From the NCBI GenBank assembly GCA_029054245.1, contig JAIDFQ010000004.1:62001-126000 (forward strand): a stretch of DNA of 64,000 nt, in the 5' to 3' direction. The stretch is from Lachnospiraceae bacterium. Its GTDB lineage: Bacteria > Bacillota > Clostridia > Lachnospirales > Lachnospiraceae. The notes below the pieces were generated by a model, which was not told the origin of the DNA, searched no databases, and saw only the letters and a program-made list of their open reading frames with translations. The translations under genes were made by a program, and so were the position numbers. Within the stretch, counting starts at the first letter, position 1. Each line of letters opens with the position of its first letter. This document shows, in pieces, positions 59,430 to 60,627 of this stretch.

Positions 59430-59569
59430 TCCTCCAGTTGCCTGTTTCTCATACGTAATCTTTTTATTAGTATACCATCATTCCCCCGTTCTTCGCAACA
59501 GGGGAAGTTGCCCTTTGGTGAACTGGGTGTATGGTAATATAAGGGCAGGTTGGACAGGAGGCGCTTGGT

Positions 59570-59917
59570 CAGCGGGAGGATAGGGAGGCAGCTTTCGGGA
59601 GCGGTAAATACGGCGGGGATGGCTTTCAGGGCGGACGGTGCAAGATATTGTTTCAAGGCTCGTCTTCAAAACCGTATTTCACTAACAAAATGGCTTTACA
59701 TGCTTCAAGGCGAACGAGTCGGAGCCAAGCGGCATCCTGCCTAATGGCTCCTAATTCCGCCATCCATGGCGGAATTCCTCTGATTATTCAACCATTTTGT
59801 AAGTGAAATTACCGCTTTTCCGCCAGAGCTTTGAAACAATATCTTGCACCGTCCGCCCTGAAAGCCATCCCCGCCGTATTTACCGCTCCCGAAAGCTGCC
59901 TCCCTATCCTCCCGCTG
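59570..59917. repeat. Giant hairpin element copy 2 (87-nt perfect arms; core inverted relative to copies 1 and 3)
   Basis: 59570-59656 is the exact reverse complement of 59831-59917; weaker pairing continues outward. Confidence 0.92.
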
Positions 59918-60202
59918 CCCAAGCCGTCTCTCCTTTCTGCCACACCTATCCTCCTGCCCAGTCTGCCCTCACCACTTTTCTGTTTCTCAAACTACCACTA
60001 TAGATTAGAGGAAACATAATCTCCTTGGTACTATATTTGAGCAAATAAAAAACTATTTTTGATAATACCTTATAGCCAAAGCAACCTCAAGGCAGGGTTA
60101 CAGAATATTAAAAATTTCGCATCACTGCCTTGCCCCTTACATAAACGGCAGCTCCCTGCTCCCCTATCTAGACCTCAGCAAGACTCTTGACGTCTGGAAG
60201 GA

Positions 60203-60627
60203 GGCATGGGAGGGAGTGGTGCACCGGGGCAGGCGGCGATGAAGCAGCATGGATAGAAGCCAGGCTCTGGCAGGATGCAGTGGGGGAAGACAACGGTATC
60301 CGGGTACGGCGCCTGTTTCATCTTTGCAAGGCTCTGGCGAAAAATCGGCAATTTCACTTATAGAATGGTGAGATATCAGGGGAATCCGGCATGGATGCCG
60401 GATTAAGAGCCGTGCGGCACGGATGCCGCTTGGCTCTGCCCCGTCCGCCCTGAACGATCTACCTCCATTCTATTAGTGAAATCCGATTCGGAGACGAGAC
60501 TTGCAAAGATGAAACAGGCGCCGTACCCAGATGCCGTTGTCTTCCCCCACTGCATCCTGCCAGAGTCCTGCTTCTATCCATGCTGCTTCATCGCCGCCTG
60601 CCCCGGTGCACCGCTCCCTCCCATGCC
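60203..60627. repeat. Giant hairpin element copy 3 (128-nt arms)
   Basis: 60203-60330 pairs with 60500-60627 with about 6-7 mismatches; core closely matches copy 1. Confidence 0.92.

Follow-up and report, generated by a model that had tools for sequence, protein, structure and literature searches.

Dispersed Lachnospiraceae hairpins built on the TwoAYGGAY motif are probably a mobile element whose arms appear to be copied from one another

The TwoAYGGAY motif (Rfam family RF01731, type label cis-reg) was rated by Weinberg 2010 as 'probably' a biological RNA, and probably not a cis-regulatory one (PMC2864571); R-scape has added covarying pairs to the motif (PMC11701678), and binding by CsrA has been proposed for it (PMC4333381). 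Mobile elements provide a second point of reference. IS66 elements are listed with 8-bp duplications (PMC3281130), and IS66-family bacterial MITEs lack a transposase gene, have GTWAC-type inverted ends, and show 8-bp duplications in young copies. REP/REPIN sequences, with TnpA-REP, are dispersed intergenic palindromes that often lie directly after stop codons. Lastly, polymerase template switching perfects quasipalindromes (PMC7202029), and palindrome arms evolving in concert have been described elsewhere (PMC6649704), so that paired arm changes are known to come about through template switching or conversion.

The element described here has features in common with each of these systems, and departs from each. 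Nearly all of its copies match the RF01731 model in full, from end to end, and have two hairpins with AYGGAY/GGA loops, but the copies sit within long copy-specific arms, number tens per genome, are unoriented with respect to genes, and have stems without an RNA wobble signature. Like IS66-family MITEs it has no transposase gene and, in young copies, 8-bp duplications, and a minority of copies have GTAA/GTWAC-type inverted ends at both sides, but its arms are 70-170 bp long, pair near-perfectly, and evolve in concert, it has a conserved structured core, and most copies are without recognizable ends. It resembles REP/REPIN sequences in dispersal and placement, but is far larger, has other ends, and is flanked by flush 8-bp duplications. 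It also shows the paired arm changes of quasipalindrome correction, although here they are spread over many scattered copies of a natural repeat in bacteria, and are able to mimic RNA covariation.

The window, a 64,000-nucleotide stretch of a gut-type Lachnospiraceae genome (G000), contains three copies of the element, each with a core scoring above the RF01731 gathering cut-off of 43 bits. Copies 1 and 3 lie on the plus strand and copy 2 on the minus strand, and direct reading of the copy 2 sequence bears out the original prediction of 87-bp perfect arms (59570-59656 and 59831-59917). In a repeat search allowing a few mismatches these grow to 99 nt with 98% complementarity, giving, in the orientation of the core, a 5' arm at 59826-59924 and a 3' arm at 59563-59661, on either side of a type 2 core at 59661-59825 (cmscan, 77.7 bits, E 5.8e-13). 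Hairpin 1 of this core (AATTCCGCCATGGATGGCGGAATT, 59753-59776) has GGA in its loop, and a second GGA is in the loop of hairpin 2 (GCAGGATGC, 59722-59751), as placed by the sequence together with the cmscan alignment. The fold of copy 2 lies 24 s.d. below dinucleotide shuffles, and chance is therefore excluded. Copy 3, its divergent partner, has a 5' arm at 60203-60334 (132 nt, 95%), a core at 60335-60496 (81.9 bits, E 6.3e-14), and a 3' arm at 60496-60627. In copy 1 the repeat search places the arms at 2015-2112 and 2275-2372, flanking a core at 2113-2275 (77.3 bits; G000:C34:64113-64275); the 5' arm has the end (G)TAACAGTTCATCCC, outside of which is a flush 8-bp direct repeat matching at 7/8 positions. 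The substitutions first noticed between copies are also real: the apical hairpin 1 reads AATTCCGCCA-TGGA-TGGCGGAATT in copy 2 and AATCCGGCA-TGGA-TGCCGGATT in copies 1 and 3, with the same TGGA, and the inner stem is AAAATGG/CCATTTT in copy 2 versus AGAATGG/CCATTCT in copy 3.

Genome G000 holds about 45 scattered copies, and 44 of the 45 listed score above the gathering cut-off. The element is present in 18 of 37 genomes of the same genus, with 1 to >38 copies per carrier, and in none of 24 genomes from other genera of the order. The core is without a match in plasmid and phage collections, and scanning contigs with an 18-base core pattern gave mostly chance matches, the true ones being from Lachnospiraceae. 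For analysis we used 168 copies from 12 genomes, which divide into two core types (type 1 and type 2). In 164 of these the inverted arms reach 20 nt or more, with 95-97% Watson-Crick pairing, and their median length is 74 nt for type 1 and 93 nt for type 2, with a maximum of 193. The arms are mostly unalignable from copy to copy except for the ∼16 nt adjoining the core; ∼100 nt of arm are shared within a few young subfamilies. A few copies are nearly armless on one side (G000:C22:10215, G000:C70:12261, and G004:C1:27296), and are possibly broken.

Comparison with relatives shows that the hairpin site of the window is empty in G020, G016, G017, and G011. In two other genomes, G004 (L426, C24) and G009 (L427, C19), the site that has the hairpin pair in G000 and is empty in G020 is occupied by 2.4-4.3 kb of sequence that includes an FMN riboswitch. 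Some orthologous loci also differ between species in core type, type 2 facing type 1, one being G000:C36:80366 versus G020:C20:71683 and G052:C7:11506, and a second type 1/type 2 locus is G000:C69:46712 versus G020:C51:23923; these switches suggest either repeated insertion in one place, or replacement of the core.

With neighboring genes called as plain ORFs, the median distance from single copies to a neighboring stop codon is 18-23 bp, and that to a start codon 105-131 bp, alike on both strands. There is no orientation bias of single copies relative to either the 5' neighbor (65/47, p 0.11) or the 3' neighbor (58/57). Because placement is the same on either strand, the cis-regulatory type label in Rfam does not fit, and a cis-regulatory or 3'-UTR RNA was rejected for the absence of bias. 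Orientation is strongly skewed among copies within 700 bp of one another: 19 of 20 such pairs are divergent and none convergent, one pair being that of the window (59661-60496) and the other 19 lying in related genomes, with spacers from 10 to 470 bp (p ∼6e-11 under random orientation, uncorrected for shared ancestry).

The loops of the core are conserved, GGA being present in loop 1 of 161 and loop 2 of 163 of 165 cores (∼98%). Conserved unpaired letters are beyond the reach of template switching, and indicate that the core has some function of its own. It is conceivable, if on balance improbable, that this is binding of CsrA, such that the core would be a putative sponge RNA riding on the mobile hairpin and multiplied along with it, with copy number setting the amount of sponge. 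Apart from having been proposed in print, this is consistent with the two GGA hairpin loops in each core, the presence of a csrA gene in G000 (C45:136735), and the similarity of ACAGGANGU, the loop in type 1 cores, to the SELEX-derived CsrA consensus RUACARGGAUGU (PMC7652899). However, the presence of csrA does not follow that of the element from genome to genome: it is equally common where the element is absent, and is undetected in the high-copy genomes G004 and G051, although these assemblies are 86-89% complete. The hairpin stems are also without a wobble signature (see below).

Why the arms stay paired can be addressed at orthologous sites. Arms could be aligned in 17 pairs of orthologous copies (partly non-independent, as a single locus sampled in three species supplies three of them). 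Their 991 arm pairs include 177 double changes that preserve Watson-Crick pairing, 19 further doubles, and 65 changes on one side only. The 196 positions at which both partners changed when the arms are in register fall to 80-88 if one arm is slid by 1-3 pairs. The paired substitutions of the original prediction are plainly present, and on a far larger scale than three copies could reveal, but the cause given for them, selection for base pairing in RNA, is not supported. This reading, in which the hairpin is transcribed and compensatory changes maintain an RNA fold, draws on RF01731 scores far over the gathering cut-off, on the 'probably' rating of Weinberg 2010, on the covarying pairs added by R-scape, and on the conserved GGA loops, yet we consider it unlikely for reasons of wobble pairing and rate, in addition to the random orientation toward neighboring genes.

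A helix of RNA can accommodate G.U, though not A.C, on its own strand. The arm mismatches show no such bias (134 G.U and 167 A.C), and RNA-like wobble tolerance is likewise absent from the core stems (53 G.U to 50 A.C), whereas TPP riboswitches of related genomes passed through the same alignment and folding pipeline gave 28 G.U to 3 A.C, albeit for a single RNA family, represented by 24 sequences and a structure that is predicted. Nine tRNAs gave 23 G.U and no A.C, a weak control, because the tRNA finder itself prefers G.U over A.C. Identity between orthologous copies is 0.77 in the arms, 0.76 in the flanks, and 0.89 in the core; with arm identity equal to that of the flanks, the arms are not slowed as they would be by stepwise compensation under selection, for which they are both too long and too fast-changing. 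Symmetric mismatches, paired changes, and arms that diverge like their flanks together argue that pairing is kept at the DNA level. As far as can be read from the sequences, one arm appears to template the other, and the paired changes here are no evidence for selection on an RNA.

About as improbable as a transcribed fold, and doubted by us likewise, is that the DNA hairpin itself, as a cruciform or a single strand, is selected through recognition by a protein, as for REP or attC hairpins, with DNA folding keeping the stems strictly Watson-Crick. The core and arm stems do lack a wobble preference, the unpaired loops are conserved, and coreless versions are rare; against this, the length and sequence of the arms vary freely, and the partner protein would be a putative one. 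We discount almost entirely the idea that the arms arise anew at every insertion, through inverted duplication of target DNA, and look perfect only through youth, since, although arms are near-perfect within a copy and different between most copies, subfamilies have ∼100 nt of arm in common, and it is contradicted by orthologous copies in different species that are still paired after many paired changes, showing that the arms are old and renewed.

The relationship to IS66 comes from the element ends. Both ends match GTWACNNTTCAG, with no more than four mismatches in total, in 18 of 168 copies (11%), and six of these 18 two-ended copies have flush 8-bp direct repeats agreeing at 7/8 positions or better, compared to 0.06 expected from shuffled partners. 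G000 also contains two coreless palindromes with the same ends (GTAACAGTTCAG), L213 (G000:C38) of 54 bp and L214 (G000:C69) of 136 bp, flanked by perfect 8-bp duplications (8/8; AGATAGCG and GTATACCT, respectively), and the outer arms of the 136-bp version are common to copies C40:64277 and C61:76237. IS66-family elements of the genus have comparable termini: G024 has an 1824-bp IS66 element with ends GTAACTATTCAGCC and an 8-bp duplication AGGAATTA, an IS66 fragment in G052 has the end GTAACTGTTCAG, and the IS66-family element of G019 likewise carries GTAACTATTCAG ends. IS66-like ends, flush 8-bp duplications, and coreless versions together make it most likely that the element moves as an IS66-type MITE, and that its legible ends have been lost in older copies.

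Another IS66-type end, GTTACTTTTCACACCCACGCC, is found in G006, in G042, and in a broken relic in G000; this relic, with its differing end, is all that G000 has near the relevant IS66 lineage. The arm ends of G010:C12:48315 and G010:C15:49340 read CATTTCACACCCACGCC, resembling the GTTACTTTTCACACCCACGCC end of this other IS66 lineage. IS66 elements with GTAAGCG ends were rejected as the direct source of the element ends, which they do not match. A CAATGTCATT..TTAAG motif sits just inside the GTWAC..TTCAG ends in some copies; it was considered as the end of an IS of its own and rejected, since, of the two places in G000 where it stands apart from the element, one is a terminator-like hairpin and the other an isolated motif lacking a transposase.

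The explanation that we favor, and think probable, is that these sequences are a mobile element of ∼360 bp that is non-coding, dispersed, and non-autonomous, an IS66-type MITE with arms templated from one another and a separately constrained core. It consists of short ends (GTWACNNTTCAG, readable in young copies), long copy-specific inverted arms, and the conserved ∼165-nt RF01731 core, whose basal stem carries the two GGA-loop hairpins. Movement would be by an IS66-family transposase acting in trans on the ends, yielding the 8-bp target duplication. Renewal of the arms, evident as a pattern, would take place as the hairpin folds out of DNA that is replicating or supercoiled, with one arm serving as the template for the other, either by quasipalindrome template switching or by arm-to-arm (recombinational) conversion; with such recopying, arm sequence drifts at approximately the rate of the flanks, but in pairs. 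The core would be under separate constraint, which may be binding of a GGA-recognizing protein such as CsrA, although support for this is weak.

Several observations sit uneasily with the MITE interpretation. Both ends are recognizable in only 18 of the 168 copies, and the IS66 link of the rest assumes that their ends have decayed. The divergent bias of close pairs goes beyond simple transposition, and the conserved loops and oriented core point to a function that a pure MITE does not need. The type 1/type 2 swaps at some loci could be either re-insertion or core replacement. A broader proposition, which is plausible but which we hold only tentatively, is that RF01731 here is a DNA-level foldback element and no RNA gene, that the covariation by which it entered an RNA catalogue comes largely from recopying of arms, and that an unknown mechanism sets the pairs divergent.

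An orphan Rfam family is thus now linked to a mobile hairpin that multiplies. Its orthologous sites show paired substitutions coming about with no need for selection on an RNA, a point that matters for RNA structure calls based on covariation, and the G.U to A.C symmetry test offers a cheap control for other candidate RNAs with long basal stems. If RF01731 is indeed a DNA foldback element, then mobile DNA palindromes can be taken for structured RNAs where covariation is the sole guide; and if the core binds CsrA, the element would act as a sponge for a regulator, with transposition setting the dose of the sponge.
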